Positions 3 through 22,386 of a DNA stretch of 37,729 nt are shown piece by piece (the stretch's first letter is position 1; each line of letters begins with the position of its first letter). The position numbers and the translations under genes are program-made. The stretch comes from Thermoplasmata archaeon (GTDB lineage Archaea > Thermoplasmatota > E2 > DHVEG-1): positions 1-37,729 of the forward strand of contig DQIQ01000013.1 of assembly GCA_003942085.1 (NCBI GenBank), read 5' to 3'. Below the pieces are notes generated by a model. That model had not been told where the DNA came from. It worked only from the letters and a program-made list of their open reading frames with translations, and did not search any database.

Positions 3-1412
3 AAGCCAAACCAAAATAAGACCTTTCCGATAGGAACCATACAAACCGTCCAACACATTTTCAATGAACTTCAACTCCCGCCACTCCTAGACCGCCTCAA
101 ACACTGCGGTCATCAACTCACCGGACTAGTGGCCGGGCTTGTCTCCTATAAAATGACCGAAAACCTGTCGGTCATCAGATGCCATCAATGGATGACCACC
201 AACCCTTTACTTCTGGAACACCTCCACCTCTCCATCTTCGGAGACGATGCACTCTACCGCTGCCTGGAAAAAATAGGGGAAAACCGACAGATCATCCTCC
301 GACATATCCTGCAGATCCTCAAAAAAGACCATGATGTCGGACTTGACATGGTCTTCATGGACTGGACCAGTTCCCACTTTGAGGCCAAGCCAACAGAGCT
401 CATCAAATACGGGTATAGCCGAGACCATCGCCCAGACCGGCCACAGATCACCATCGGTCTGGCACAGGATCAACACTCACAGCTCCCGGTTGGACTCAGT
501 ATACAACCCGGGAACATCAACGATCAACAGCATTTCAAAACCACCTACGAACAGATCAAACCAGGACTCCGAGCAGGGAGCGTCCTGGTTTTCGATGCCG
601 GTGCCACCGGCAACCCCAACCTCGATCTTCTCGTAGCAGACAAGATGAAATATCTCTCCCGCATGAAACTCAACACCAGTGACATCACACAACACCTGGA
701 CACGTTCAGCAAAGAGGAATGGACACCGATCATGACTGGAAACCAGGATGAACAGGTGTACGGGAAACAACTAGTGTTCCCCAGCAGAACCAAATACCTG
801 TATTTCTCCCAGAAACTCCACGATGATACCCTGGCGAACCGACGGAAACACCTGCAACAGGAATACGACGAGGCACTCAGCCTCTGGAAGACCATACAAG
901 AGCAGAGACGGCCGCGTCAGAAATACCGCAACAGCAACCACTTCATCCAAACACACCTCTCCTACACCTTCCCCCTCACCGGTCTCACCCGTGAGGAGGC
1001 CATAGACTGTGCGTTGCAGCTGTCCATCAACGGAAAAGAAGGATTTTTTACACTCGTTTCAAATAAAGATTTCTCACTTCACGAGGCACTCCAATACTAT
1101 CGTGAAAAAGACAGTGTGGAGAAACTATTCAACAGCATGAAAAACGAACTACATATCCGTCCGACACGCTGCTGGACACAGGAGGCGATCAACGGATCCA
1201 TCCTTATCGCGTTCCTTGCTCAGTTGGTCATCAGCATGCTACGGTACAAACATGACGAGTTGCGTCATGTTTCCACGAAATTCATCATCCAAAGCCTCGG
1301 TAATTTCGCAGTTACCATCATTATTGAAAAAAACGGGGTGAAAAAACGTGTTTTTTCCAATTTCGATTCGATCAATACCCTGATTTTTTGTGGAAACACA
1401 CCAGGATCATAG
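3..1412 (+). mobile_element. IS1634/IS4-type DDE transposase, 5'-truncated by window edge (ORF track starts at internal GTG 129, but the frame is open back to base 3)
   Basis: Motifs MVFMDWTSSHFE, YGYSRDHRPDRPQ, SVLVFDAGAT and YREKDSVEKLFNSMKNEL (D, D and YREK-like E region typical of IS1634/IS4 transposases); in-frame codons 3-128 without stop (KPNQNKTFPIGTIQTVQHIFNELQLPPLLDRLKHCGHQLTGL). Confidence 0.92.
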
Positions 1413-1442
1413 GTTTTTCAGCATTTTTTGCTGCTGAAAACC
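1412..1442 (+). terminator. Hairpin directly after transposase stop (TTTTCAGCA-8nt-TGCTGAAAA)
   Basis: 9-bp perfect inverted repeat 1415-1423/1432-1440, flanked by GG/CC that can extend it with a one-base bulge. Confidence 0.5.
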
Positions 1443-1624
1443 AGAAAATAATGTGAAGTGCGAAATGTGTTCTAATCAAGAAAAGAACGATCACCTGCGA
1501 AAGTCAGGTACCTAACTTACCGTTAGTGTGAATGAGAGTTGCATAATCATCTGTTTTTGCTTCGTTTTGGATATAAATATAAATACATGATATACTTTAT
1601 CATTCTGTAAGGAGGAAATAAATC

Positions 1625-2062
1625 ATGAAGAAAATTATTCCACTACTGATTGTAGGAATGTTAGTCCTGACTGGACTTGGGGCAGCAGCAATACCTATTG
1701 AAAAAAGTACAATATCTCAGCCAGAACTGCTTATAAAAGTTAGGGGTGGGTTTGGACTCCATTTAGTTATTGAAAACATTGGAGATGCACCTGCTACCGA
1801 TGCTGACTGTGTGATAGTTTGGTGTAATATATCTGATTATAGAAGTTGGGAAGGTCCGTTTCCAAGTTCAGATTCATTTCAGTTAGGTACTATTGCTCCA
1901 GGTCAATCTGTAAAAGTTTGCTTTAGACCAGTTGGATTAGTATTTAGGCTTTTTTCAGACCGTAATAACATAGAGGTTGAAGCAGGTTGTGCTGAACATT
2001 CATATTCTAGGGTTGATATAAAACACACTATTTTATTATGGAGACTAATAATATTAACATAG
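1625..2062 (+). CDS. Small secreted protein: signal peptide plus CARDB-like C-terminal module
   Basis: MKKIIPLLIVGMLVLTGLGAAA signal peptide; GGFGLHLVIENIGDAPATDADCVIVW matches the C-terminal module of the 12789-14561 protein; RBS ggagg upstream. Confidence 0.8.
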   Translation: MKKIIPLLIVGMLVLTGLGAAAIPIEKSTISQPELLIKVRGGFGLHLVIENIGDAPATDADCVIVWCNISDYRSWEGPFPSSDSFQLGTIAPGQSVKVCFRPVGLVFRLFSDRNNIEVEAGCAEHSYSRVDIKHTILLWRLIILT

Positions 2063-2221
2063 CACAATCTCAACCATTACGAACATATCAAAAAAATTGC
2101 TCATAGTTGAAAAACAAAGTTAAAACCGTGTTAATGCTTGACCTCAATTGAAGTTTCTGAGGATATGTTTTTAAAGAAGAATGCAAAATAAAAAATCAAA
2201 TGATTATTTAGAAATCAAATT

Positions 2222-2536
2222 TCAATATGATGAGGACACAAAACCAATTATTAACCAAAATCCATTTATACCAAGCCCTATACCTGACAGTAAAAATGCA
2301 TATCGTCTAAATCTATCCTCTTTTGAGATTTTTCTTGTTAATGCATACAATATCATTCCGAATAAACATAATAATACAAAAATCAAGAAGAAAACGAAAA
2401 TTGTCCAATTAAGTGGTATTTCGCCTTGTAATGTAGTATATATAATATCTGGTATTGGTACGAGGAATCCTCCAGAAAAGCCAATTATTGAAATGAAAAG
2501 AATAATCTTACTCTTAAGGGTATGTTTCTTTTCCAT
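2222..2536 (-). CDS. Small integral membrane protein (about 3 TM helices)
   Basis: MEKKHTLKSKIILFISIIGFSGG... with multiple hydrophobic stretches and positive-inside N-terminus; preferred over the antisense ORF 2181-2834. Confidence 0.7.
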   Translation of the reverse strand: MEKKHTLKSKIILFISIIGFSGGFLVPIPDIIYTTLQGEIPLNWTIFVFFLIFVLLCLFGMILYALTRKISKEDRFRRYAFLLSGIGLGINGFWLIIGFVSSSY

Positions 2537-2571
2537 TTGTTTTAATTATCTTTTTCGATTTTTTAACATTT

Positions 2572-2596
2572 TCGGGTTCAAATCCCTTCCCCTGCA
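2572..2596 (+). tRNA. tRNA 3'-end fragment only (T-arm plus acceptor strand), no body
   Basis: TCGGGTTCAAATCCCTTCCCCTGCA followed by CTTTTTTT; T-loop GGGTTCAAATCCC and acceptor-like CCCCTGCA; no GCAGGGG 5' strand or anticodon arm upstream. Confidence 0.5.
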
Positions 2597-2655
2597 CTTT
2601 TTTTATGCTGACAAAGGTTTAAATAACTCAGGGTGTTTTTATTTAATATGGAGGA

Positions 2656-5121
2656 ATGACGTTGTTTCGAAAAGGATTAGTTATTTTAACTATTCTCTTG
2701 TTCGTTGGAACCTGCATCATTCCAACGACTGCACAAAATATTTTGAAACCATGTCCAACATCAAGAGGAGATTGGTTGTATGTCGGTGGTGGTGGACCGG
2801 GGAATTACTCAAAGATTCAGGATGCAATAGATAATGCAAGTGACGGGGACACTGTTTTTGTCTATAGTGGGACCTACCCAACGTCTGGCATTTATATAGA
2901 AAAAGCGATTCAACTCATAGGAGAGAATAGAAATACAACAAACGTTGAATCATCATCAAATGTTGGGATTTACATAAAACCAAATTCACATAATGTGGCA
3001 ATAAATAATTTCACGTTTCAAAACTTTGCTGTCGAAACTCATTATAATAATAATATCAGTATCAGTGACAATATATTCTTGACCACTGTTTATTATGGGA
3101 ATCCTTCAGTTATAGACTCGTCTGGGTCGTACAATACATTCAAAGGAAACACCATCATTCTGAGACATACGACTGAAGAAGAAATTGGTCCAAATGAATG
3201 TATGGGATTGAATGAATATCATTCCACCATTGTGAATAACACCTTGGTCGGAGCAACATATACCGGATTATCCCTCGGGGGGAGACCAACTGAAAATGAG
3301 CAGTATGGCCTGAACATAATCTCCAGGAACACCTTCTCAAATAATGAAATAGGCCTTTATTTAAGCACCCTTGTAACAACCATAGGAAGGAACAATATCA
3401 CACAAAACAATTTTATCAATAATAGCGACCATGCGGGATTTACCATAAGTGTCTTAAATCCGTTTGATTTGATTCATGTGTTTTCATCCCTGCATAGGAT
3501 TCCTTTTTCACAGTGGGATGGCAACTATTGGGATGATTATACGGGTCATCTTGGTCGGAAGATTCCTGGAAAAATACAGTTCTTTTCAACAAGATTTGAA
3601 ATTCCTGTAAGGAATGTTGATCGTCATCCTGCCCCTGAGCCCATATACCTGAACAAGAAGTCAGGTTCGGCAACATCATTGGACACTATTTCTAATGTAA
3701 TGGAGAGATATAGTGATAGTACTATGACCTGGGGTGATTGGTGGCCTGATTTTCCAGGGAGATATGAATCATTCTTTGAAGTCAAAGATATTATTGATTT
3801 CGGTCAGACTGCCTGGGGGTTGACCACCGCTGATTTTAACATGGACGGTCTGATGGATTTCGCAGTCTCCTGGGCAACAAATCCTTGGACACATTCGACA
3901 ATCTCCATTTTCTATAATGATGGGGATGGTGGTTATACGCAGGATGATGTGTATACGACCACATTCTATCTGAGATATATCGAGGATTTGAGTTCAGGTG
4001 ATTATGACAATGATGGTGATATTGATCTTTTGTTTACCTACTCTGAAGCTACGGGTCCTCAGAAAACGAATGGTGTTGTGGATCTTTTATTAAACGATGG
4101 ATCAAATCATTTTGTTGATTGTGTAATGGTCACTCGGCTTCTTCCAACAGATGGTGGAGAACGACGTATTAACCCTCAGGTGAGTTCAGCGGATTTTGAT
4201 GACGATGGTGATATTGATTTCCTGGTAGGCGATAACAGTGGCCTGGTTGAGTTCTATCGGAACAACGGGTCCGGTGTCTTTACTGGTACTGGCATCTATG
4301 ATTTCGGTGAGGAGATGAGCTGGGGTCTTTCTTCCGCTGATTTCGATGGCGATGGAGATATTGATTTTATTGTGACTCAATCAAAAAATATTGATGCTGG
4401 TCGTGTTCTTTTAGTGCCTAATGATGGAACAGAGGAGTGTTTCAATCAGTCTAATTATGTTCAAATCGCAGTTCTCCCCCCAAGACTATCATTTTTTGCA
4501 GGGCCTGTTGCAGGTTTCGGATGTTTATGTACCATGGATTATGATGATGATGGACGGATGGATTTCCTTTTTTCAGGGGGTGACTCTCTATTTCTCTATA
4601 TGCAAAATGAAACCGGGGGTTTTGATTATTTTCACGTCTGCCGTCTTCCAGCGGTTAACGTTGGAAATGGTACGTTCTATGCAGATCAATTACGTGTAGG
4701 GGCCATAGCCACTGGTGATTTTAACGGAGATGGTCTGGATGATTTGGTTGTCGGTGGTGTTCAAGGAGTGGTACGGTTATTCATCAATCAAAGGATGCTT
4801 GTGGATATTATCTTCCCGGACCGAGAGGGCATAATAATTCATAACGAGTATAAAATGGATCTATTGCCGTTTTATTTTGCTTTTAAGCATGGAACTTCCT
4901 TCGCATTCGGAAGGATAACCGTTATTGCAAAAGAGCTTGAGCCGCTTCAAAAAGTTGAGTTCTACCGTGGGAACAAACTGATGTACACCGATGACGCGGC
5001 GCCCTATGAGTGGAATTGGACTGGTTTTTCTTTTGGTCGCCATATCATTAAAGCAGTGCCCTATGACCTTGATGGAAAACAAGCAGGGTATGATACTGCT
5101 GTAGTCTGGAAGTTCTTTTAA
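2656..5121 (+). CDS. Secreted NosD-type beta-helix plus FG-GAP/VCBS repeat protein with C-terminal Ig-like domain
   Basis: Signal peptide; GNYSKIQDAIDNASDGDTVFVYSGTY; NNNISISDN; NYWDDYTG; repeated DFDGDGDIDF / DFNGDGLDDL Ca-binding loops; C-terminal KVEFYRGNKLMYTDDAAPYEWNWTGFSFGRHIIKAVPYD. Confidence 0.9.
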   Translation: MTLFRKGLVILTILLFVGTCIIPTTAQNILKPCPTSRGDWLYVGGGGPGNYSKIQDAIDNASDGDTVFVYSGTYPTSGIYIEKAIQLIGENRNTTNVESSSNVGIYIKPNSHNVAINNFTFQNFAVETHYNNNISISDNIFLTTVYYGNPSVIDSSGSYNTFKGNTIILRHTTEEEIGPNECMGLNEYHSTIVNNTLVGATYTGLSLGGRPTENEQYGLNIISRNTFSNNEIGLYLSTLVTTIGRNNITQNNFINNSDHAGFTISVLNPFDLIHVFSSLHRIPFSQWDGNYWDDYTGHLGRKIPGKIQFFSTRFEIPVRNVDRHPAPEPIYLNKKSGSATSLDTISNVMERYSDSTMTWGDWWPDFPGRYESFFEVKDIIDFGQTAWGLTTADFNMDGLMDFAVSWATNPWTHSTISIFYNDGDGGYTQDDVYTTTFYLRYIEDLSSGDYDNDGDIDLLFTYSEATGPQKTNGVVDLLLNDGSNHFVDCVMVTRLLPTDGGERRINPQVSSADFDDDGDIDFLVGDNSGLVEFYRNNGSGVFTGTGIYDFGEEMSWGLSSADFDGDGDIDFIVTQSKNIDAGRVLLVPNDGTEECFNQSNYVQIAVLPPRLSFFAGPVAGFGCLCTMDYDDDGRMDFLFSGGDSLFLYMQNETGGFDYFHVCRLPAVNVGNGTFYADQLRVGAIATGDFNGDGLDDLVVGGVQGVVRLFINQRMLVDIIFPDREGIIIHNEYKMDLLPFYFAFKHGTSFAFGRITVIAKELEPLQKVEFYRGNKLMYTDDAAPYEWNWTGFSFGRHIIKAVPYDLDGKQAGYDTAVVWKFF

Positions 5122-5133
5122 TCTATCGAATGA

Positions 5134-5187
5134 ATTTATGTGCAAATTTTGATTCTGCACATAAATCCCCCCATTTGTGTGCAAAGC
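5134..5187 (+). repeat. 54-bp repeat copy 1 (ATTTATGTGCAAATTTTGATTCTGCACATAAATCCCCCCATTTGTGTGCAAAGCC)
   Basis: Aligns without gaps to the reverse complement of 20062-20115 with roughly 8 mismatches; internal perfect 11-bp inverted repeat 5134-5144/5156-5166 plus a third half-site 5173-5186. Confidence 0.85.
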
Positions 5188-5810
5188 CTTATGAAGGTAT
5201 CCTTCTTTTTTATTCATCCAGCAATACCATCAAGAGGAATACAATCTCACGATACCCTAATTGCATTCAACTTATTGCTTCCAGCTTCAATGTAATCTAT
5301 AAAAACACAATTATGAATAAATTGATCATCTCAAGTATTTCAACTTTTAACCAAATCACTCAAAACCATATCGAAGGTGGAGTTGAAATGCAAGGTGGTT
5401 GCCGCTCCAATGCCTTTAGGTACAATGATATCTCCAATGGTAATCGAGGAATCTGGCTCGATCTTCTTTGTAATTCGAATAGTTTTGTCAAAAACAATAT
5501 AACAAACAATGAGGTTGGTGTTCAGGTAATGCCCTGTCAATTGAATACTTTTAAAAGAAATAATTTCATAAATAATACTCTTCATGCATATTTTGAGGAT
5601 ACCCTATTGTCAAGTATTTTACCTGATTTCTGGTGGAGGAACTATTGGGATGATTGGGATGGAACCATCCCGAAACGTATTGAGGGAAAAATGATTATTA
5701 ATCATTTATCTTTTGATCCTGATTATCCAGTTCCTCCGACAGTTAAACCATGGACGAATTTCGATTGGTTTCCGGCAAGAGAACCCTATAACATCCCAGG
5801 GATTGTGTAG
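5188..5810 (+). pseudogene. 5'-truncated NosD-type beta-helix gene (ORF 5130-5810), lacking signal peptide and N-terminal repeats
   Basis: Homology-like sequence starts at YEGILLFYSSSNTIKRNTIS just after the 54-bp repeat and ends with the typical RNYWDDWDG..PKRIEGK..FDWFPAREPYNIPGIV tail. Confidence 0.65.
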
Positions 5811-6656
5811 ATGAAACAGGGTCTGATGAAAGAAGTGTTGGTTGTTGCTGTTATCCTTTTGTTCATCGGTGTCGCAATCGCCCCAAGCATCAACTTCAGT
5901 GTCGTCAAAGCATCCGATGACAACGACCTGGTTGAAGTCACCACACAAGCGTGCGGCATCAAAGGATTTGGGAATACCACGGTGAAACTCACCAGAGAAC
6001 AATATCAGAATCTGGAGCAGTATCTGGTTGAATTCAGGGAACGATTGAATCAGACATCAACCAGGGAGGAAGCGGTTCCTATTTTCAAGGAAGCGGTGGT
6101 GGAGTTGGATAAGTATGGGTTGTTGCCGAAGGGGATGAGTGTTGAACGGGTACAGAAGTTGGTTACGACAAATCAAGCTCATCCTGATGTTGAAAAACTG
6201 ATGAACTCCCCAAAGCTATCTCTTTCTCATTTAGAGTTTAACAATGTCTTTTGTTTGTTGTCCATGCTTTCGGTGGTACCTGGTAGTGACGTAACATTTG
6301 GGTTGCTTACTTTACCTAGTGTAATTCTTTTCATGATTTTTACCATGGGTATGTTTCATTTTAATAATCTTGAACTTGCAATGTTGGTGGCTATTCCATT
6401 ATTACTGTCAGTTATCGTAGGGATTCCTTCGTTGATTTTTAATTTGTTAAGTCCTCTTTTACTTTGGGCGGTGGTAATAATTAACTCTGGTTACCAGGGG
6501 TTGTCTTTAGGATTAAAAGGATTGCAACCAATAAATCAAAATTTTCAATTTCTAATTGGTTTTAAAGGGCTTCGGATTTGGCTCCCTATTAGCCAGTATG
6601 ATAGAATAAGTTTTTACCTTGGTCAAGCTCTTGCGACAGCATCATATGTTCCCTAA
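5811..6656 (+). CDS. Secreted/membrane hypothetical protein
   Basis: Signal-like MKEVLVVAVILLFIGVAIAPS, soluble helical region, several hydrophobic stretches; start codon directly abuts preceding TAG. Confidence 0.75.
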   Translation: MKQGLMKEVLVVAVILLFIGVAIAPSINFSVVKASDDNDLVEVTTQACGIKGFGNTTVKLTREQYQNLEQYLVEFRERLNQTSTREEAVPIFKEAVVELDKYGLLPKGMSVERVQKLVTTNQAHPDVEKLMNSPKLSLSHLEFNNVFCLLSMLSVVPGSDVTFGLLTLPSVILFMIFTMGMFHFNNLELAMLVAIPLLLSVIVGIPSLIFNLLSPLLLWAVVIINSGYQGLSLGLKGLQPINQNFQFLIGFKGLRIWLPISQYDRISFYLGQALATASYVP

Positions 6657-6761
6657 TAAGAATCGCTATAAAAAACTAGAAAGAGAACGTCTGAAATTGT
6701 AGATGTGAGACTTTACCCTCCAGATTCTTTCAGTGTATCCGGATTTTCAATTGATGTTTAG

Positions 6762-7103
6762 TTACAGTTTTTCTTTTACAATACGATAAATCCTGATGTT
6801 TTTACCCCTGTAAAACTCAAGTACGCCATATTCAACCAACCTATTTACAGCCTTGTAAAGTTGTACACGGTTCAGAGGTATTTCTTGTTGTGTGTTTTTC
6901 GTTAATTTGAGGTAATTTTTATTCGTTGTTTTCAAAAAATCACACAACACAGTAATGTGGTTCATTGAATCGCATAATCGAACTTCAAAGTGAAAAGATT
7001 TAGCGCGTGCTATCATGATTATTTTTCGTTTAAACATTGAAATAACGGGGATATAGCGATGAACGCATCCTTCTTGGTATGAAACCATTCTTTTCATTAA
7101 CAA
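6762..7103 (-). CDS. Winged-helix (HTH) transcriptional regulator, start uncertain
   Basis: NHITVLCDFLKTTNKNYLKLTKNTQQEIPLNRVQLYKAVNRLVEYGVLEFYRGKNIRIYRIV resembles a wHTH fold. Confidence 0.55.
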   Translation of the reverse strand: MLMKRMVSYQEGCVHRYIPVISMFKRKIIMIARAKSFHFEVRLCDSMNHITVLCDFLKTTNKNYLKLTKNTQQEIPLNRVQLYKAVNRLVEYGVLEFYRGKNIRIYRIVKEKL

Positions 7104-7588
7104 TCGTTTTAAATGATGTGAAACCTGACGATGAAATAATTAAAAACAAAATAGGGGATGAATTTACAGACTCAATAAAGACTATCCTTAATGATATTGC
7201 TGAGCTGATTGAATATACATCAGCATTTATTCCCCCTTTATTCTCTTAACTTACAATAAAGCCATACAAGTAAAGCCCCTATACCCTATGGGATAATTGG
7301 TAATATTGGTTAATTGGTATATACGGGGAAAAAAGTTGTAGAAATATGTTTGAATAAAATCCATCAACTATTTTTTTGTGATACCATCTAGTAACCCTTC
7401 TAGTGGAGGTTACTGAATTACTTGAATATTTTATATGAATAAAATATTAGTTAGATGAAAAAGGATGTTCCTCCGATTTTCCTTATAGTTATAGATAATA
7501 GGTGAAACTGGGAAGGCTATTCGAAACCCCCCGAAATCATTGAACATAATTTCTCCTCTAATCATCCCAGAAGTGATATCAAAATTTT

Positions 7589-7630
7589 GTTAATATTTTC
7601 GTCGATATTTTTAACGATTCTATAGAAGAA
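7589..7630 (+). repeat. Direct repeat copy 1 (GTTAATATTTTCGTCGATATTT core)
   Basis: 22 nt identical to 8463-8484 and similar for a further 20 nt. Confidence 0.75.
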
Positions 7631-7735
7631 ATTAGTTCTATATTCTCCCAGAAGCGTAATGACTTTTTCATTGGTGACAGCACATTTTTATAAACAACTT
7701 GTATTTCGTGTTTCTGAGGAGACCGGGAGACATTT

Positions 7736-8263
7736 ATGAATGAACCCAAGAAATTAAATAAAATGACAATTTCTATTTTTTTGTCGTTCATTTTGATTAT
7801 TCTCATATTTGTTCTCACATTTCAAAACGATGACCTCCTCGTATACGGCCATGTATTCGCTGGCGCGGTCACCTTAGCCTTTGCCTTAATTGGCGTCATT
7901 ATTGGTGCGATGATAACAGGGCGGATAAAGAAAAATACCCTTGGAAATCTTCTGAAAATACATCTTGTGGTAAACGGATATGTCAACTTTCTTATCATAG
8001 GTACGTTTCTATATGGCATCTGGGCGCGGGTAGCACACGGTGAACCTTTGTTTTTCCAAAGTGGTGATTCGCTGATGACGATGTTAAAAGGGTGGTTAGG
8101 AGTAGTTCTCATACTAGTAGCGATGATTCAAATCCTTCCTTGTATCATAGTAAAAAATAAACAACGGAAGAAACAAATTCATATGGTTTTTGGATATTTA
8201 TTATTACTTTTATTGATAGCACAGACATTACTTGGAGTGGTCGCGACATTATCTGGTGCCTAA
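7736..8263 (+). CDS. Four-TM integral membrane protein, possibly cytochrome b561/DUF420-like
   Basis: Four hydrophobic helices with His in or near TMs (VYGHVFAG, LKIHLVVNG, QIHMVFGYLL). Confidence 0.65.
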   Translation: MNEPKKLNKMTISIFLSFILIILIFVLTFQNDDLLVYGHVFAGAVTLAFALIGVIIGAMITGRIKKNTLGNLLKIHLVVNGYVNFLIIGTFLYGIWARVAHGEPLFFQSGDSLMTMLKGWLGVVLILVAMIQILPCIIVKNKQRKKQIHMVFGYLLLLLLIAQTLLGVVATLSGA

Positions 8264-8340
8264 AAACGGCAAAAAATGGGCACATCATTAGATAAACGAG
8301 GAGTAAGTAGCATCATATTTTCTTATTTTTTTCAAAAGGT

Positions 8341-8439
8341 TTACAACTTCCTTGCCAGAAATATCGTAATAGTTTCGATAGACTTGTGCATCATCAAACC
8401 TGTAGCAATTCCATCATCGACTAAGATGATTGTTTTATT
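8341..8439 (-). pseudogene. Phosphoribosyltransferase remnant (PRPP loop)
   Basis: Minus-strand translation NKTIILVDDGIATGLMMHKSIETITIFLARKL* contains the ILVDDGIATG signature; no start or N-terminal domain in frame. Confidence 0.65.
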
Positions 8440-8462
8440 AAAAAAAGATTGGGAAAAAAATC

Positions 8463-8503
8463 GTTAATATTTTCGTCGATATTTCTGACGATTTTATAAG
8501 AGA
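8463..8503 (+). repeat. Direct repeat copy 2 (GTTAATATTTTCGTCGATATTT core)
   Basis: See 7589-7630. Confidence 0.75.
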
Positions 8504-8679
8504 TTTTTAAACGCTAACCACTTTGTTAACCGCCCAGCCTCCTGTTCGATTTTTGTGAATTCAGTCAATAGTCTTAATGGTTTTGGTTCGATAGATTTTC
8601 GTTCCTGACTTTTTCTCGTCGGTTCATATTCAAAGTTGTTTAAAGGTTCTTTATGCAACTGACAGTAAGTGTCTGACAT
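8494..8679 (-). CDS. Short hypothetical protein
   Basis: 61-aa ORF with ggaaag RBS-like sequence upstream of ATG; no recognised domain. Confidence 0.35.
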   Translation of the reverse strand: MSDTYCQLHKEPLNNFEYEPTRKSQERKSIEPKPLRLLTEFTKIEQEAGRLTKWLAFKNLL

Positions 8680-8843
8680 GGAATTTCTTTCCTTCGAATC
8701 ACATTAAACCGTACTAATCCCGGCACGTCGATAGGGAGAAACCAAAGGCTATTTTTATACTCCTTGGGAGTTATACTGAGAGTATACAAACATATTTATA
8801 GAAGATGCGCCTCTTTATTATTAACAAATAAGGGGTATTAAAT

Positions 8844-10814
8844 ATGAAGATGAAAATCGCAGCGTATTTTGTAGTTGTACTATTCTTGATCGGTAGTATA
8901 ACTGCAGTAGGCATAGGAAAGCAGTTGACCGCTAACGAAAAAACTATCGCTGTACAATTTTCAGCGCCAAAAACAACTCTGTCAGCCATCGAATCAAACA
9001 CGTATATTCAATTAAATATTGGAAACGCTGATCAGGCGTTGTATACCGCAGGGGAGCCAATTCTGCCAATGTATACGACAGTTCTGGAATTCCCTCTGGG
9101 GACAATTATAACAAGCGTTGAATGTATTCCTCAAGAAATACAAACAATGACGTTGCCGTATAAGATAATGCCTGCTCCTGAGCCGATTGCGTTGAACTCT
9201 GAAAATCCTGTCGCGGTGTACTCAGCAGATCAGGCCACGTATAACTCTGCACAATACTTCCCTGACAACTGGGTTGATTACTCCACTGGTGGTGGGCTCA
9301 ATAGTAATAATCAGCATACCACTTTTTTATCAATACGGACATTTCCCGCACGATATAGTCCTGCGACAGATACCATTCAATACATGAAGAATGCAGAAGT
9401 GAAGGTGAGCTATAAAAACCCAGAGAAGACAATGACTTTTGGGTCAGGATATCAATTAGTCATTATCGCTCCAGCTGCCTTCTCCAGTGAATTAACAAGA
9501 CTCGTGGATCATAAGATAGCCAAGGGCATCAATACAACACTGATGACCATTGAAGATATCTATAATCAATACACCGGGTATGATTCCCCTGAACAAATTA
9601 AATACTTCATTAAATACGCGTTAGATACCTGGAATACACAATATGTCCTTCTTGTCGGTGGTATGAACGGATACCTGTTCCACCAAGGCGGAAAAGATGA
9701 TGCAAATCAGGGAACAAAGGATTGGTACCTTCCGGTACGGTACACAAACCTCGACGAGGGCGGAACAGAGCATGATCCCGGATATATCAGCGATCTGTAC
9801 TATGCTGATATTTATGACAGTCATGGTAATTTTTCATCCTGGGATTCAAACAATGATCATATCTATGCAAAATGGAGAGGCGGGGGAAAGGATATCATTG
9901 ATCTGTATCCTGATCTAGCTGTCGGTCGGTTACCCTGTCGAAACACAAAAGAGGTAAAACTCATGGTTGATAAAATTATCACCTATGAAAGCACTGCTGC
10001 TGATCCGTCATGGTTTAATAAAATAGTTCTTGTGGGTGGGGACTCCTTTGACGATCGACCCGGAAGTAATATGCCGGAAGGGGAAGTTTCAACGGAGTTT
10101 GTCTACAATGAATCCATGGCAGCATCATTTACTGATGTGCAACTCTTTGCAACAAACAGAAATATCTCTAATGATTTCACACCGACCCCAAAGAATATCG
10201 AGCGTGTAGTTTCTGCCGGCTGTGGTTTCTTATATTATGATGGACATGGAAGCCCGGCATCCTGGAATACCCATTGGGTCGACGAGTTCACCTGGGCAAA
10301 CGGAAAAACACCTGGTGGAACAAACGCGTATGGACTCATTAAATTCAGGAATGGAGATAAACTGCCGGTCTGCGTTGTTGGTGGCTGTCATAACAGTATG
10401 CTCAATGTCTCGTTTTTCTGGACATTGGACAAAAGCCATACTCAAACCTGGACCTATGGGGTGCCTCTCCCCCGATCCTGGAGCGAATGGATGATAATGA
10501 AAAACAATGGTGGAGCGATTGCTTGTATGGGGAACACCGGTCTTGGTTACGGATTTGTAGGGACTATTGACGGAGAACCTGCTTGTTATCAGGGTCTTGG
10601 TGGGTATGTCGAAAGGACATTCTTCAAATCCTACAACGAAAGCAGCTCGAAAACCCTGGGTGATGCCTGGGTTGGCGCAATCACCAAGTATCTGGTGACC
10701 TGGCCTGGGATGTTACAACAAGCAGATTGTAAAACCGTTGAAGAATGGATTGTCTTTGGGGACTCGAGCCTCAGGATAGGCGGGTATTCCGCAGTTGAAG
10801 GGATCCTGAACTAA
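8844..10814 (+). CDS. Secreted gingipain-like cysteine peptidase (family C25)
   Basis: Signal peptide; C25 prodomain-like N-terminus; catalytic His motif FLYYDGHGSPASW and Cys motif VCVVGGCHNSMLN; DLAVGRLPCRN. Confidence 0.88.
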   Translation: MKMKIAAYFVVVLFLIGSITAVGIGKQLTANEKTIAVQFSAPKTTLSAIESNTYIQLNIGNADQALYTAGEPILPMYTTVLEFPLGTIITSVECIPQEIQTMTLPYKIMPAPEPIALNSENPVAVYSADQATYNSAQYFPDNWVDYSTGGGLNSNNQHTTFLSIRTFPARYSPATDTIQYMKNAEVKVSYKNPEKTMTFGSGYQLVIIAPAAFSSELTRLVDHKIAKGINTTLMTIEDIYNQYTGYDSPEQIKYFIKYALDTWNTQYVLLVGGMNGYLFHQGGKDDANQGTKDWYLPVRYTNLDEGGTEHDPGYISDLYYADIYDSHGNFSSWDSNNDHIYAKWRGGGKDIIDLYPDLAVGRLPCRNTKEVKLMVDKIITYESTAADPSWFNKIVLVGGDSFDDRPGSNMPEGEVSTEFVYNESMAASFTDVQLFATNRNISNDFTPTPKNIERVVSAGCGFLYYDGHGSPASWNTHWVDEFTWANGKTPGGTNAYGLIKFRNGDKLPVCVVGGCHNSMLNVSFFWTLDKSHTQTWTYGVPLPRSWSEWMIMKNNGGAIACMGNTGLGYGFVGTIDGEPACYQGLGGYVERTFFKSYNESSSKTLGDAWVGAITKYLVTWPGMLQQADCKTVEEWIVFGDSSLRIGGYSAVEGILN

Positions 10815-10827
10815 TCTAAAAAACTGT

Positions 10828-10890
10828 GCAGTTCCTTGAAAAAACCGTACTGCAAAGCTGTGAGCGGTCAATACCGCACCAGGGAACTGC
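10828..10890 (+). other. Structured intergenic element downstream of C25 peptidase gene
   Basis: Outer arms GCAGTTCC (10828-10835)/GGAACTGC (10883-10890) enclosing hairpin GCGGT-CAAT-ACCGC (10864-10877). Confidence 0.45.
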
Positions 10891-10954
10891 CGTCTTATTC
10901 TTTAAACATAATGAATATATCTTTTTGTATATCTTTTACTGCATGAAATGATTG

Positions 10955-11137
10955 CTATACGTCCTTGGATATCCTACTAATCAACATTCCTGTTTTTTTT
11001 CGTAGTCTCAATATAATGACGAGCAGAAGGATAAGTTGCAATCCCACGAACACGACAGACGATCCAGTGGTGCTCGTGACTGGGAAGATAGCCACATTGA
11101 CGATGTTAAAGAGGTAGTGTTGTTCATTAGACGAAGG
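10955..11137 (-). pseudogene. Possible C-terminal TM-anchor remnant of a secreted protein
   Basis: Stop-to-stop frame reads ...LFNIVNVAIFPVTSTTGSSVVFVGLQLILLLVIILRLRKKTGMLISRISKDV* without a start codon. Confidence 0.3.
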
Positions 11138-11289
11138 TTACCAGTCTTTTTTTTATATACAGTTTGGTCAATGATTATCTAGCGGAAGGAAGAATTTTTT
11201 CTTTGATGTTTTCGGTGATATTTTTGAGCGAGCTATCAAGCGTCATTTTCTTTTTTGAAAATCACCTGAACAATCTACGAGATATACCA

Positions 11290-11748
11290 CTAGAGTCCGT
11301 CATATCTTCCTAAGATGAAGGTATCCGTATACATTCCTTTAAACCCGGGAAACTGGCCGTATCTCAACTGGAGGTCGCGATTTTTTATACTGATAAAGGC
11401 AGGTCCAGATCCAAACCCATAGTAATGACCGATCAAGAAAACAGTGATTGCTCTGCAGTTGAGTAAGGTCGTGCCATATTCGTTTACTTCTATCTGGGGA
11501 TTGGCTATCCTTCCAAACAGCGTTCCTCTGACCCATACGGGATCATAGCTTGGTATGTTCTCTGATTGGGTTAGTTTTTTTGTCGCGGAATGCAAAGAGG
11601 CGACCTCTACTAGGTTTCGACTTGTGGTTCTACTTTTTAGGGGATGATCAAAAAGAGATGGCAGATTATTTTTAATTGCTCCTGCAGCTATTACAAATCC
11701 ACTGAGGACTAAAATCCCGACGATTGATATCGGTATAATTTTGTTCAT
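11290..11748 (-). CDS. Small secreted hypothetical protein
   Basis: MNKIIPISIVGILVLSGFVIAAGA signal peptide similar to that of the 1625 gene; aggagg RBS upstream of ATG 11748. Confidence 0.7.
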   Translation of the reverse strand: MNKIIPISIVGILVLSGFVIAAGAIKNNLPSLFDHPLKSRTTSRNLVEVASLHSATKKLTQSENIPSYDPVWVRGTLFGRIANPQIEVNEYGTTLLNCRAITVFLIGHYYGFGSGPAFISIKNRDLQLRYGQFPGFKGMYTDTFILGRYDGL

Positions 11749-11903
11749 GTATTTCCTCCTCAATCTATGATATTATAACAACCATCTCTTTTTAAAAACA
11801 TATCATTGCAACGATATTTATCAGACAAACTTTCACACGGTTTATGGGCAAAGAATTTTAATATGGTTACTTTATTGTTACATAGAATTGGGAGGCGTAA
11901 AAA

Positions 11904-12062
11904 ATGCTACAAGGAAAGGTAATTATAAATTTTAATTATGATGAAGCCAAAGAAAAATGCAGTTGGGATCTGAGACAGGAAGGTAAAGACACCCTCAATA
12001 AAGATGATTTGATTTCCTTATTTGAACATATCATTGGAGAGTTCATGTCAGATTCACAATGA
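11904..12062 (+). CDS. 52-aa small acidic protein (below ORF-track cutoff)
   Basis: ATG 11904 with ttgggaggcg RBS; MLQGKVIINFNYDEAKEKCSWDLRQEGKDTLNKDDLISLFEHIIGEFMSDSQ*. Confidence 0.6.
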   Translation: MLQGKVIINFNYDEAKEKCSWDLRQEGKDTLNKDDLISLFEHIIGEFMSDSQ

Positions 12063-12093
12063 CACAGTAGTATCAGGGATCATTAAGCAGGTT

Positions 12094-12621
12094 TTATAAA
12101 ATGTTCTTCGCTTTTAATGAACCAGGGTTGATGATGTAATGGTTCCGTGGAGAGTAAAGAATCTGTGAAAGCTCTACTTTTTCAAATACTCCAGGATATT
12201 TCTCCATTAATAAATTGACGAATTTTTTTGCATGGACTAGATCTTTTGCGGTAAAAATGATAATCCAGTCATATTGACCATGGATTTTGTAGCTACTTTC
12301 AATTTTAATTCCAAGATATGTGTAATCCTCAAGGATTGAATCTAAGTTGATTTCCTCAGCAGCTTTTTTATCTAATCGCTGCATCATTGTTTTAAAGGAC
12401 ATAATATATTTTTCAAGATCTTGTTTTTGCTCATCAATGATAGCAGTGTACCCCCAGATCATGCGACTCTCTTCTAGTTTTTTAATGATTTTCCATACTT
12501 TCTGTCTTGAAAAACCATAATGTTTTGCGATCGTGTCTATATTTTCCTTGGCGTTTTTCTGAAGCTCAACAAGAATCTTCATTTCATCTACTTGAATCTG
12601 TTCTTTAGAGTTTTTAGCCAT
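12094..12621 (-). CDS. Lrp/AsnC-family transcriptional regulator
   Basis: N-terminal HTH ENIDTIAKHYGFSRQKVWKIIKKLEESRMIWGYTAIID plus AsnC-type ligand domain (YDWIIIFTAKDLVHAKKFVNLL). Confidence 0.85.
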   Translation of the reverse strand: MAKNSKEQIQVDEMKILVELQKNAKENIDTIAKHYGFSRQKVWKIIKKLEESRMIWGYTAIIDEQKQDLEKYIMSFKTMMQRLDKKAAEEINLDSILEDYTYLGIKIESSYKIHGQYDWIIIFTAKDLVHAKKFVNLLMEKYPGVFEKVELSQILYSPRNHYIINPGSLKAKNIL

Positions 12622-12788
12622 AACTCTTTTACTCCCTATGTATCACAGTTTTGTAACAATTCCTTATTTAAGAACATATTCTTGGAACGGATTTTTGTGC
12701 GAAACAATGGTAAAAAATAAAAAAAAGAAAAAAGAAGGCGGTGGTCTTCTCTGGATGATCTTGATGTGCACGAGAGATTCTGTGTGGA

Positions 12789-14561
12789 TCATAATCTGAT
12801 GAAAAACAAAAGAATCGTTCCATTCTGAGACCGTTCGGTTGCGCTATCTAGGACCTCTGCGGTAACCGTGACAACTGTTTTACCAAACCCAAGGATAAGC
12901 TTCGAGCTGATCGTGCGTTCTTCACCTACACCAAGAGATATTATTTTTCCGGTGGTGACTTTACCGATCCAGGCACCACCAACCAGGGTGATGCTCCAGT
13001 TAATATTTGTTGCTGGGGCGTCACCAATGTTTTTGATGGATGTTTTTACCTTAAATAGTCCGCCAGTGATGGTTTGTATCTCAAGAATCGGTCGTTGGGC
13101 AATGGTGATGGAATGTATCGCTGACCAGTTACTTTCAGCACCGAGCGTATCTTTTGCTTTTACTTTTACCGAAAAGTCTCCTGCAGCAGTCCAAGTATGT
13201 GATGTGCTTGCCACAACACCGGAGGGATAGGGTCCAAGCCAGCTGCTGTTGGTGTCATCACCCCAGTCAAAGAAGTAGAAGACGTCATCTCCATCATTGT
13301 CAGTGGTGTTCGTACTAAAATTATATTCGATATTCATAAATCCGTTCTCAGGTCCATTCGGTGCAGCTGGTGGATTTGGTGGGGTATTTGGGTCCATAAA
13401 ACAGTACACTTTATGGTCACCTGAACCGATGTAGACCCGTCCTTCAGCAACCGCCGGGGAAGCCCAGACGATATACCCAGAGGTATGGCTCCATATCGGT
13501 GCCCCTGTTTCAGCATTAAAACAATAAATCTTATGGTCAAACGATCCAGCGTAGACCTTTCCATCGGCAACAGCAGGGGAAGAATAGAAGAAGTCTGCTG
13601 CCTGGAAATCCCAGATCTTGTCACCTGTTGCTGCATCAAGGCAATAAAGTGTATTGTCAAAGGAACCAACGTAGACTTTCCCATTGGCTACCGCAGGGCT
13701 AGATTCAATAGAGGCACCAGTTGCATAGTCCCAGAGCTTTGCACCAGTGAGCGCGTTTAGGCAGTATACTTTATTGTCACTGGATCCGATAAAGACGTTA
13801 TTGTCTGCAGTTGCTGGTGATGAATAGATGTCATTGCTGGTCGTATAATCCCAAATCCACACCCCGTTGCTCGCATTCAGACAGTACACCTTGTCGTCCC
13901 AGGAACCGATGTAAACCATCCCGTGATAGACTGCAGGGGACGATATGATATCATCACCGGTTGCATACTCCCAGATCTTCGTCCCACTATTAGCATCGAG
14001 ACAATACACCTTATGGTCCCGTGAGCCGACATAGACTTTTCCTTCGAAAACAGTTGGAGAAGAAACAACATCTGATCCAGTTGTATAATTCCAGATTTTT
14101 CCTCCGCTCATCGCATCCAGACAATAGAGCTTGCCATCGTTTGAGCCGATGTAGACTTTTCCTTCGGCAACCGCAGGGGATGAGGTAATCTCAAGACCTG
14201 TCAAATACTCCCAGAGTTTCGAACCTGTGTTCGCATCGAGACAGTAGATCTTTTTATCCCATGAGCCGACGTAAACCTTTCCATCGACAACCGAGGGAGA
14301 CCCACTCATCTCAAGGCCAGTATTGAATGTCCATAACACTGTATTTGTGTTGGGTGCTGTTGAGGTTGAATATCCTGTGTGACCAGGGTCATGGTGGAAC
14401 ATTACCCACCAATCGGTTGTTAAAGCCAATGACGAGATGGGTTCGTTTGTCCTATTGCTTTTATTGTCCATGTTGTTTCCAAGACCGACCCCATAATTTA
14501 CTCCGAAGAGTAAAAGCATGATTCCAAAAATCAATAGTTTTTCTATGATGTTTTTTTTCAT
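12789..14561 (-). CDS. Secreted PQQ-like beta-propeller (8 repeats) plus PKD domain plus CARDB-like C-terminal module
   Basis: Eight SPAVADGKVYVGSxDxKVYCLDAxTGxxxW repeats of about 40 aa; PKD-type FDWGDDTNSSWLGP...SHTWTAAGDFSVKVKAKDTLGAESNWS; C-terminal GGLFKVKTSIKNIGDAPATNINWSITLVGG. Confidence 0.92.
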   Translation of the reverse strand: MKKNIIEKLLIFGIMLLLFGVNYGVGLGNNMDNKSNRTNEPISSLALTTDWWVMFHHDPGHTGYSTSTAPNTNTVLWTFNTGLEMSGSPSVVDGKVYVGSWDKKIYCLDANTGSKLWEYLTGLEITSSPAVAEGKVYIGSNDGKLYCLDAMSGGKIWNYTTGSDVVSSPTVFEGKVYVGSRDHKVYCLDANSGTKIWEYATGDDIISSPAVYHGMVYIGSWDDKVYCLNASNGVWIWDYTTSNDIYSSPATADNNVFIGSSDNKVYCLNALTGAKLWDYATGASIESSPAVANGKVYVGSFDNTLYCLDAATGDKIWDFQAADFFYSSPAVADGKVYAGSFDHKIYCFNAETGAPIWSHTSGYIVWASPAVAEGRVYIGSGDHKVYCFMDPNTPPNPPAAPNGPENGFMNIEYNFSTNTTDNDGDDVFYFFDWGDDTNSSWLGPYPSGVVASTSHTWTAAGDFSVKVKAKDTLGAESNWSAIHSITIAQRPILEIQTITGGLFKVKTSIKNIGDAPATNINWSITLVGGAWIGKVTTGKIISLGVGEERTISSKLILGFGKTVVTVTAEVLDSATERSQNGTILLFFIRL

Positions 14562-14830
14562 AATTTTTCCCCCTGTCTACAATTTTATAACGATGTTCCC
14601 CTTTAAAAACATATCTTTGGATCATGTTTGTCGTATGATAAATATCAGAAGGGACATATGTCAGGTCCTAACACTTATCCAATGCCGATTGCACCACCGG
14701 TGATCAATATGGTATTTCCACTTATTTTCATCTTTAGACCGCACCTCCAGAAAACCTGATACAAAGAAAACCACTCGCATCTTCGCTATTTAGTGATTTT
14801 TATCCTTTGATACGCACACGATCTTTACTG

Positions 14831-19886: not shown

Positions 19887-20061
19887 ATCTCAACAGTCCC
19901 CCAAGTGCACGTTTCGTCGAAATCAAGTTCGTAACAATGAAAGAATGCACTCTTACATAAAGATAACCGCTGTCTAACTAAAAAAAAAAAGAAAACGAGG
20001 GAAAAATATGATCCTCTCTCAGCTATTATTTTAATATACATATTAATGATTATAAAAATAG

Positions 20062-20115
20062 ACTTTGCACACAAATATGGGGATTTATGTGCAGAAATTA
20101 ATTTTGCACATATAT
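20062..20115 (-). repeat. 54-bp repeat copy 2 (inverted relative to copy 1)
   Basis: ACTTTGCACACAAATATGGGGATTTATGTGCAGAAATTAATTTTGCACATATAT on + strand; reverse complement aligns to 5134-5187 over 54 nt. Confidence 0.85.
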
Positions 20116-20196
20116 CATAGAGATATACGAAGATATATATTATAATATATACTATTATTAAAAATAACTAAATAAAAAGGTGGTTAATATTCGGCT

Positions 20197-22386
20197 CTAT
20201 ACCTTCAATAGGTGTCGTAGTATCGGGAATGCATGCGGGAATCGTTCTAGGAGAGATGTGAAAAAGTTAAACGGTATCGCTGTCGGCATCTTGACATTGA
20301 GTTCCGACCAGTTACTTTCAGCACCGAGTGTATCTTTTGCTTTCACGCGTATGGTAAACATCCCTTTCGTAGACCATGTATGGTTCGCATACACAATATC
20401 ATTAGATGCAGCCGGTCCAAGCCACCCCGTGTTTGTCCCGTCACCCCATTCGAACCAATAGAAAACGTCGTCCCCCTCAGGATCAGATGCATTGGCAGAG
20501 TAGGTGTATTTTTCGTTGATGTGTCCTTGCGCTGGACCTGAGATGATAGGTTTGTAGGGAGGGGTGTTTTGCTCCTGTATCAGCGCCCAGGTCGAATCAT
20601 GGACGACGACACCGTCGTGATCAGTCACCGTCAACACGACTGTATTGTTTCCGATCGCTACATAAGCATGTGTTGGGTTTTGCTCATTAGACGACCCACC
20701 ATCGCCAAAATCCCAGGAAAATGCGTACGGCGGCGTCCCATCTGTCGCTGACCCTGTGAATTGGAGAGGCTGGTTCACCAGCCCCTGGTAGGGACCGTGT
20801 GCATCGACTGAAAAGCCTAGGATGCTGAAATCCGATGATGACAGGGCAGATGCACTCGAAGACGACGTGGAAACGATGACCTTCATGCGACATAGATCAG
20901 ATCCGCTCCCATCGACCAACCATTGATAGCACCCGTTGTTCGGCAGCTCGTCAGCAATCGTCGTCCAAGGACCTGACGTCCCATGGACTGACAACTGGAT
21001 CTTGGCCGTAGCAGCACCCTCTGATGGCGGTACAGCCGCGAGCCATTTTACAGTTCGGATGGATCCAACCCGGTATGTCTCTCCTCCATGCGGTATGGTC
21101 ACCTGGGCGGTAAGATCCATCGGCTCGACCCACGGGGAGTACACCCGCAGCTGGTTGGAACTCTGCGTTGCCTGAACAACGATATCCTCCCGTCCATCAT
21201 GGTCGATATCGCCATCAACAAGCAAGTCTGAATAATCTCCGGGAGACGGCATCGTCCATGAACCGCTCAGCATCCAATTGCCGGTCCCATCACCAACATA
21301 GATGTAACCTTGCGGGCCGATGTAGCAGACAATATCGAGGAATCCGTCACCGTTGATGTCCCCGAACTGGGCGTGATACGTCCCGGATGTCGGCAGACCT
21401 GTTGAGATAGACACCCAACCGTTCGTATCCACATCATACGTATAGCAGCGAATACCAGATGACTCTAGACCGAACACGATGTCATCGCAACCGTCGCAAT
21501 TCGCATCCCCGCAATCCATCCCTTTGTACTGTCCCGTGGGAAGATTATTCTGGCTAAGATTGAACCCGAACGATCCATTCCCAAGGAATACATACTGACT
21601 ATCTGTTGAAGTAAAAATATCTGGAAATCCATCGGCGTTTGCATCCCCGGTCTCAAGGTTATTATCTGAGAACAAGTACGTGCCATCGACACTCCAAGCA
21701 TGACTCCAGTTCCCATCTCCATGGTTCTTATACACATGCACGCCCTGGCCCATACCGAACGATTGAGACACGATGTCCAGCAGTCCGTTGCAGTCAAAAT
21801 CAGCAAAATCAGTGGCAAACATACCCCACCATTCATCATCGGTCGCAAGACCAGTGGCATAGGGAATCCAATTATACCCGGTCCCATCGCCTAACGCGGC
21901 ACCGATCAAGGTATCCCCCCACCCTGGCACCCCGCTGTAATCATGATGAATGCCCCAGGCGACATCAAGGATCCCGTCATTGTTAATGTCACCAGCAGCA
22001 ATGCCTCCATACCCAAACTCCCCGTTTTGATGCACGGTCCAGGAGCCCTGGCCATCACCGAACCATACCATGATCCCATGTTCTTGACAATTGACGTAGG
22101 GAGAGCCATGATCACCGACCGAGATGATGTCCACGTTTCCGTCGTTATTCAGGTCAGCCATCTCCATTTCGGTTTTTCCTATTTCTTTTGACGGGGTTTC
22201 AAGCCCTGTCGATTTGGAAATCAGTACAATATCGCGAGGAATCGTGGCAGCAGATGCGGTCTTTTGGAGTATTTCTCCCTTTGTGGAATTATCAGGGGTA
22301 GTAAACATCGATGAAAATGCTAAGGAATGGAGTAAAATCAAGCAAACCGCAAGGACAAAAACGTTCATTCTTTTGTTCTTTTTCAT
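20197..22386 (-). CDS. Secreted FG-GAP/VCBS plus PKD repeat protein
   Basis: Signal peptide; DLNNDGNVDIISVGDHG, DINNDGILDVAWG, DFDCNGLLDIVSQ, DANCDGCDDIVFG, DINGDGFLDIVCY; PKD FSWDFGDGGSSNEQNPTHAYVAIGNNTVVLTVTD; C-terminal FNFFTSLLERFPHAFPILRHLLKV. Confidence 0.92.
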   Translation of the reverse strand: MKKNKRMNVFVLAVCLILLHSLAFSSMFTTPDNSTKGEILQKTASAATIPRDIVLISKSTGLETPSKEIGKTEMEMADLNNDGNVDIISVGDHGSPYVNCQEHGIMVWFGDGQGSWTVHQNGEFGYGGIAAGDINNDGILDVAWGIHHDYSGVPGWGDTLIGAALGDGTGYNWIPYATGLATDDEWWGMFATDFADFDCNGLLDIVSQSFGMGQGVHVYKNHGDGNWSHAWSVDGTYLFSDNNLETGDANADGFPDIFTSTDSQYVFLGNGSFGFNLSQNNLPTGQYKGMDCGDANCDGCDDIVFGLESSGIRCYTYDVDTNGWVSISTGLPTSGTYHAQFGDINGDGFLDIVCYIGPQGYIYVGDGTGNWMLSGSWTMPSPGDYSDLLVDGDIDHDGREDIVVQATQSSNQLRVYSPWVEPMDLTAQVTIPHGGETYRVGSIRTVKWLAAVPPSEGAATAKIQLSVHGTSGPWTTIADELPNNGCYQWLVDGSGSDLCRMKVIVSTSSSSASALSSSDFSILGFSVDAHGPYQGLVNQPLQFTGSATDGTPPYAFSWDFGDGGSSNEQNPTHAYVAIGNNTVVLTVTDHDGVVVHDSTWALIQEQNTPPYKPIISGPAQGHINEKYTYSANASDPEGDDVFYWFEWGDGTNTGWLGPAASNDIVYANHTWSTKGMFTIRVKAKDTLGAESNWSELNVKMPTAIPFNFFTSLLERFPHAFPILRHLLKV

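Follow-up and report, generated by a model that had tools for sequence, protein, structure and literature searches.

Related insertion sequences and transposons

IS903B ends with GGCTTTGTTGAATAAATC and is associated with a 9-bp repeat (PMC10569121). Members of the ISAba12 group end with GGCTTTGTTGCAYAAA and their target duplications are mostly 9 bp; in Acinetobacter, ISAba12 with its 9-bp duplications is accompanied by MITEAba12, which shares its ends and is a short, non-autonomous derivative (PMC6382973). The IS903B copy of plasmid Rts1 (L232) has GGCTTTG ends (GGCTTTGTTGAATAAATC), the duplication gacacaacg and NF033579 (IS5_2) as its best NCBIfam model. In MIC231 of Bacillus, which belongs to the IS4 family, a passenger gene lies between IS ends without a transposase and is presumably mobilised in trans. 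Tn7-like transposons duplicate 5 bp of their target.

The window in this study is a stretch of 37,729 nucleotides from a Thermoplasmata archaeon (contig DQIQ01000013.1), in which a 54-bp repeat with three half-sites occurs twice. This repeat is very probably the cargo-side end of an IS5-family, IS903-like DNA transposon in one Thermoplasmatota family. Among the three origins proposed in the earlier note, a mobile-element terminus is retained on the evidence, described below, of empty sites, a linked transposase, inverted repeats at the termini and perfect duplications of 9 bp in the target, and a recombination scar and a family of intergenic protein-binding or RNA elements are not. New features are the asymmetric end with three half-sites, the cargo of surface or restriction genes and a pair of private accessory genes.

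Similar to IS903B, the Thermoplasmatota units have GGCTTTG ends containing ATAAA, a 9-bp duplication and a transposase whose catalytic D, D and E residues align with those of IS903B and whose best model is NF033579. The terminal inverted repeats of the unit on contig 37 of the source genome (C37) and of the G011, G025 and G038 units all begin with GGCTTTG. The transposases scored 116–128 bits, below the 140-bit cutoff, versus 356 bits for the IS903B control; they were about 17% identical to the IS903B transposase with no significant pairwise match, and the profile E value of 5e-9 was obtained against three sequences. Different from IS903B, an element of about 1.06 kb that has one gene and simple ends of 18 bp, the Thermoplasmatota units possess the inner end sequence GCACATAAAT, a three-half-site end, cargo and extra genes. 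The organization of the IS903 group, a single-gene element of ~1.05 kb with simple ends, was not found among them. Given that the units range from 38 bp to 11 kb, carry cargo and have a three-half-site end, the element works like an IS903-group member, yet it is a variant in its cargo, size and complex end rather than an ordinary IS of this group.

Distant relatives of the transposases were found in Acinetobacter plasmids. ISAba12, however, is bacterial, about 1.04 kb long and without cargo, and its ends are simple; MITEAba12 is 113 bp long, whereas the smallest Thermoplasmatota unit is 38 bp. Similar to MIC231, the G011 unit consists of a passenger between IS ends with no transposase and with a target duplication, CCTTTTTGC. 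MIC231 belongs to another IS family, whereas the passengers of the Thermoplasmatota units are archaeal surface-protein genes and the ends are asymmetric. Large cargo, asymmetric multi-site ends and accessory genes beside the transposase also resemble Tn7-like transposons by analogy only. Unlike those, the Thermoplasmatota units have an IS5-type transposase and a 9-bp duplication, and no TnsA/B/C/D or TniQ-like protein was detected by Pfam, NCBIfam and PADLOC among the scanned unit genes.

Architecture and distribution of the repeat

The positions of the repeat copies, complete units and associated genes are given in Table 1. All three half-sites of copy 1 were exact matches within the spans placed in the earlier note, the first pair forming the perfect 11-bp inverted repeat described there, and the outer terminus of copy 1 is AAAGCC (5183–5188). 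The reverse-complement recurrence of the 54-mer was also found, at 20060–20115 with ~86% identity. Copy 2 has ATATATGTGCA as its outer half-site and GAC at 20061–20063 as its outer terminus. The source genome contains a third copy, C37:9703–9758 (−), and the identities of copy 2 and the C37 copy to copy 1 were 86–88% over 56 bp. The overall architecture of the element is [TTTATGTGCA]-11-[TGCACATAAA]-8-[TTTRTGTGCA]AAGCC; ten copies aligned gap-free and their spacing was invariant.

Table 1. Features of the window, complete units of the transposon and loci of the accessory gene pair.
Feature	Position	Strand	Basis or remark
Copy 1, cargo-side transposon end with three half-sites	5133..5188	+	architecture matches proven ends
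Internal half-site 1, ATTTATGTGCA	5134..5144	+	exact match
Internal half-site 2, ATTTATGTGCA	5156..5166	-	exact match
Terminal half-site 3, ATTTGTGTGCAAAGCC	5173..5188	+	exact match (5173-5183) plus terminus
Copy 2, cargo-side end, slightly decayed	20061..20116	-	similarity to copy 1, model match
FG-GAP/Big_7 secreted-protein gene, putative passenger of copy-1 unit	2656..5121	+	placed by end orientation
TTATGAAGG, expected right copy of 9-bp target duplication	5189..5197	.	predicted; left copy not found
NosD remnant without 5' end	5190..5810	+	Pfam NosD; homologues longer upstream
FG-GAP/PKD gene, putative passenger of copy-2 unit	20197..22386	-	placed by end orientation
C37 unit, 5,301 bp	C37 9703-15003		inverted ends; perfect 9-bp duplication TACTTTAAT
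G011 unit, 945 bp	C42:835-1779		perfect 9-bp duplication
G038 unit, 38 bp	L089, C1:99542-99579		perfect 9-bp duplication TATCTGTCT
G025 unit, 11,063 bp	L158 (C91) 224-11286		perfect 9-bp duplication CCCTTTATC
G024 unit, 1,523 bp			perfect 9-bp duplication GGTAGGATA
G027 unit, 1,924 bp			perfect 9-bp duplication CCCTTTTTC
wHTH-like + 450-565-aa adjacent gene pair	L018 7617-9666; L158 1636-3481; L157 1784-4014		
wHTH-like + 450-565-aa adjacent gene pair, continued	L229 2467-4694; L230 4143-5988		

Single half-sites were not enriched in the window, where a loose search (≤2 mismatches) returned 28 matches versus 26 expected by chance. The whole array was far above chance, the other two copies of the source genome having E values of 1.7e-12 and 7.6e-14. 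Thus, the signal resides in the whole array.

When 84,980 prokaryote genomes were scanned once with an exact pattern, ten loci matched, seven of which were from Thermoplasmatota and had an identical 48-bp span. The three bacterial matches (L035, L037, and L038) had other spacings and were taken as chance. A covariance model identified the element at E ≤ 0.1 in 18 of 45 genomes belonging to the family of the window, typically in few copies each; the seven genomes from two other families of the same order had no match. The DNA pattern was not found by the scan of viral contigs. The third genomic copy and the copies in relatives exclude the case, considered in the earlier note, of only two copies without conservation in relatives. 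The flanks of the copies in relatives were mostly unrelated to each other, and many of these copies were solo ends. The last half-site followed by AAAGYC had 33 matches in the 45 genomes versus about seven for a reversed control pattern, including isolated copies that face the array.

Complete units and target duplications

Complete units bounded by target duplications were found in the source genome and in relatives. In the C37 unit, the end facing the array lies 5.3 kb from it, and the boundaries read TACTTTAAT followed by GGCTTTGCACACAAA at one side and TTTATGTGCAAAGCC followed by TACTTTAAT at the other. Starting from the array, the unit contains genes for an FG-GAP surface protein, a wHTH-like protein, a 506-aa protein and a DDE transposase. 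The transposase frame continues past the plain end into host DNA. The homology, to proteins in G022 (72%) and G044 (63%), stops at query residue 364, the start of the terminal repeat, and GTTTATGTGCAAAGCC/T comes next in both homologs. In four congener loci (L185, L187, L188, and L189) the sequences align contiguously across the joined flanks of the C37 unit, so the C37 site is empty there.

The unit sizes varied substantially. The G011 unit contains one ORF for a 197-aa protein with a surface-protein-like tail and no transposase, and the G038 unit consists of two half-sites only, near the smallest imaginable non-autonomous element. The search for a shared mobile gene and target duplications in the flanks, which the earlier note had proposed, thus yielded a linked DDE transposase and six units with perfect 9-bp duplications. 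All nine positions matched in 6 of 58 end pairs at the true boundary versus 9 of 6,960 shifted comparisons (~80-fold), and eight of the latter nine matches were at one single offset. The target duplication was absent from the G022 end pairs. The G027 unit and a looser G023 pair adjoin other ends, which makes the CCCTTTTTC duplications of both less independent and weaker. Junctions of the form AAAGCC-CCCTTTTTC-GGCTTTGC were observed at L092 (G027 C129, about 5830–7830) and L165 (G023 C239, about 8610–14800), which suggests that these units were inserted beside pre-existing copies.

The two ends of the units differ. The array end is on the cargo side and the other end adjoins the transposase gene, with one half-site in C37 and two direct half-sites in G022, G044, and G025. 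In the transposase-less G011 unit, the other end has two half-sites. The cargo-side end has two extra half-sites in its interior, of which one is inverted and the other direct, and no internal half-site has the AAAGCC terminus. The 10-bp half-site TTTATGTGCA forms the inner portion of the terminal repeat and, by analogy with IS903, would be the part bound by the transposase; the predicted cleavage end is the outermost GCC, which reads GGC on the opposite strand. The transposase would thus be expected to bind the half-sites, and the extra ones presumably have a role at the cargo-side end. In the proposed mechanism, the transposase would join both ends and cut the target with a 9-bp stagger. The inserted DNA would be whatever sits between the ends: the transposase plus cargo, only cargo or, as in the 38-bp unit, hardly anything. 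Units without a transposase are probably mobilised in trans.

The duplications and the empty site also bear on other roles of the repeat. As an RNA hairpin or terminator in 3'-UTRs, its inverted half-sites would fold after the stop codons of surface-protein genes; all three copies of the source genome lie about 12–80 bp after an FG-GAP stop and are oriented alike, an 11-bp stem forms when the copy-1 strand is folded (−12.4 kcal/mol), and the G027 copy has paired changes in both arms. However, the orientation varies in relatives, where the G005 and G004 copies are opposite to or between unrelated genes, no Rfam match was found in the window, and a hairpin leaves the conserved AAAGCC beyond it unexplained. 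Given that transposition is required by the target duplications and the empty site, a hairpin role is largely refuted and very unlikely.

Half-sites 2 and 3 can also be regarded as 10–11-bp arms around a 6–8-bp spacer, a geometry for which a dif/pdif-like or attC-like site was considered, with a tyrosine recombinase shuffling surface-gene cassettes; single genes are often adjacent to the repeat. This candidate was dropped once the 9-bp target duplications appeared. They are perfect and abut GGC/GCC at both ends, whereas spacer exchange would leave none, and the other end is linked to a DDE transposase, which renders site-specific recombination extremely improbable. We give hardly any credence to a transcription-factor operator before a regulon, despite the palindromic arms and the AT-rich, promoter-like DNA that follows some copies at a distance of a few tens of bases, as the downstream genes are without evident common function, the copies are few per genome and patchy, and the duplications and empty site show insertion; variable orientation and the lack of an Rfam match led to its rejection together with the RNA element. 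Within a transposon end, an internal autoregulatory role of the array for the transposase is possible.

The repeat copies in the window

The two copies in the window are end-only, and their assignment to the transposon is drawn from their identity with ends proven elsewhere. As stated in the earlier note, copy 1 starts 12 bp past the stop codon of the FG-GAP gene (at 5121), and NosD-like coding sequence follows directly: the NosD frame begins at 5190, one base beyond the last GCC (5186–5188). Most NosD homologs in congeners reach about 150–440 residues further upstream, which agrees with the reported loss of the NosD 5' end at the repeat, the extension being at least 150 residues. Given these longer homologs, insertion of the copy-1 unit most likely split the NosD gene and removed its start. 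Copy 1 would be the right end of a unit inserted in NosD, with the FG-GAP passenger ending 12 bp inside the unit, and copy 2 an older end whose passenger is the FG-GAP/PKD gene. The transposon end explains the truncated NosD gene as well as end-only repeats that otherwise resemble intergenic regulatory elements.

For copy 1, neither a second end nor the missing NosD half was found in the contig, and the unit may leave the contig. For copy 2, no partner end was found within 17.6 kb, and no empty site could be assigned to it, as congener synteny breaks beside a GNAT gene. Neither copy in the window has a paired target duplication. The copy-1 unit extends to the left of 5188 and the copy-2 unit to the right of 20061, and the intervening 14.9 kb is outside both; since the outer ends face each other, the pair was rejected as two ends of one 15-kb element. 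A transposase gene at 3–1412 was also rejected as the partner. Its 469-aa product belongs to the IS1634 family, scoring 238 bits at a cutoff of 100, and matches the C37 transposase weakly over 36 residues only; the gene lies at the contig edge, which is an assembly break. In addition, a secreted C25 (gingipain-type) peptidase with a propeptide is encoded at 8844–10814.

Cargo and accessory genes

The cargo of the G025 unit includes a TdeIII-type restriction enzyme (Pfam 2e-53) and a type II methyltransferase (PADLOC 1e-148), together with a PD-(D/E)XK nuclease and an HD-domain protein. Thus, in uncultured Thermoplasmatota, surface-protein and restriction-modification genes are movable by an IS-like transposase, and the exact, searchable end signature makes cargo elements findable in fragmented genomes.

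The C37, G025, and G044 units share a common gene order of wHTH-like protein, 450–565-aa protein and transposase. The wHTH-like proteins ranged from 170 to 187 amino acid residues. The large protein was found at five loci only in 80 genomes of the class, three of them beside a transposase, and searches with Pfam, NCBIfam and PDB profiles returned no convincing match. A resemblance of this ~500-aa protein to tRNA-guanine transglycosylases, noted by eye, was dropped as the same profiles were unconvincing. The accessory protein was detected neither by a scan of viral contigs nor by a search of plasmids. We tentatively consider, as a possibility that is rather doubtful at present, that the wHTH-like and orphan 450–565-aa proteins work with the IS5-type transposase in a new multi-gene family of archaeal transposons, for instance by choosing targets or assembling the asymmetric three-site end, letting an IS-type enzyme carry kilobases of surface or restriction-modification cargo. 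Should these two genes function in transposition, a simple insertion sequence would have become a cargo transposon by an independent route.

Finally, the passenger genes of the window (20180–20215, −) and of C37 (about 9759–9795, −) share ~35 nearly identical nucleotides across the stop codon (..CACCTATTGAAGGTATAGAGCCGAATATTAAC) and diverge after it, which suggests recombination between cargo 3' ends.
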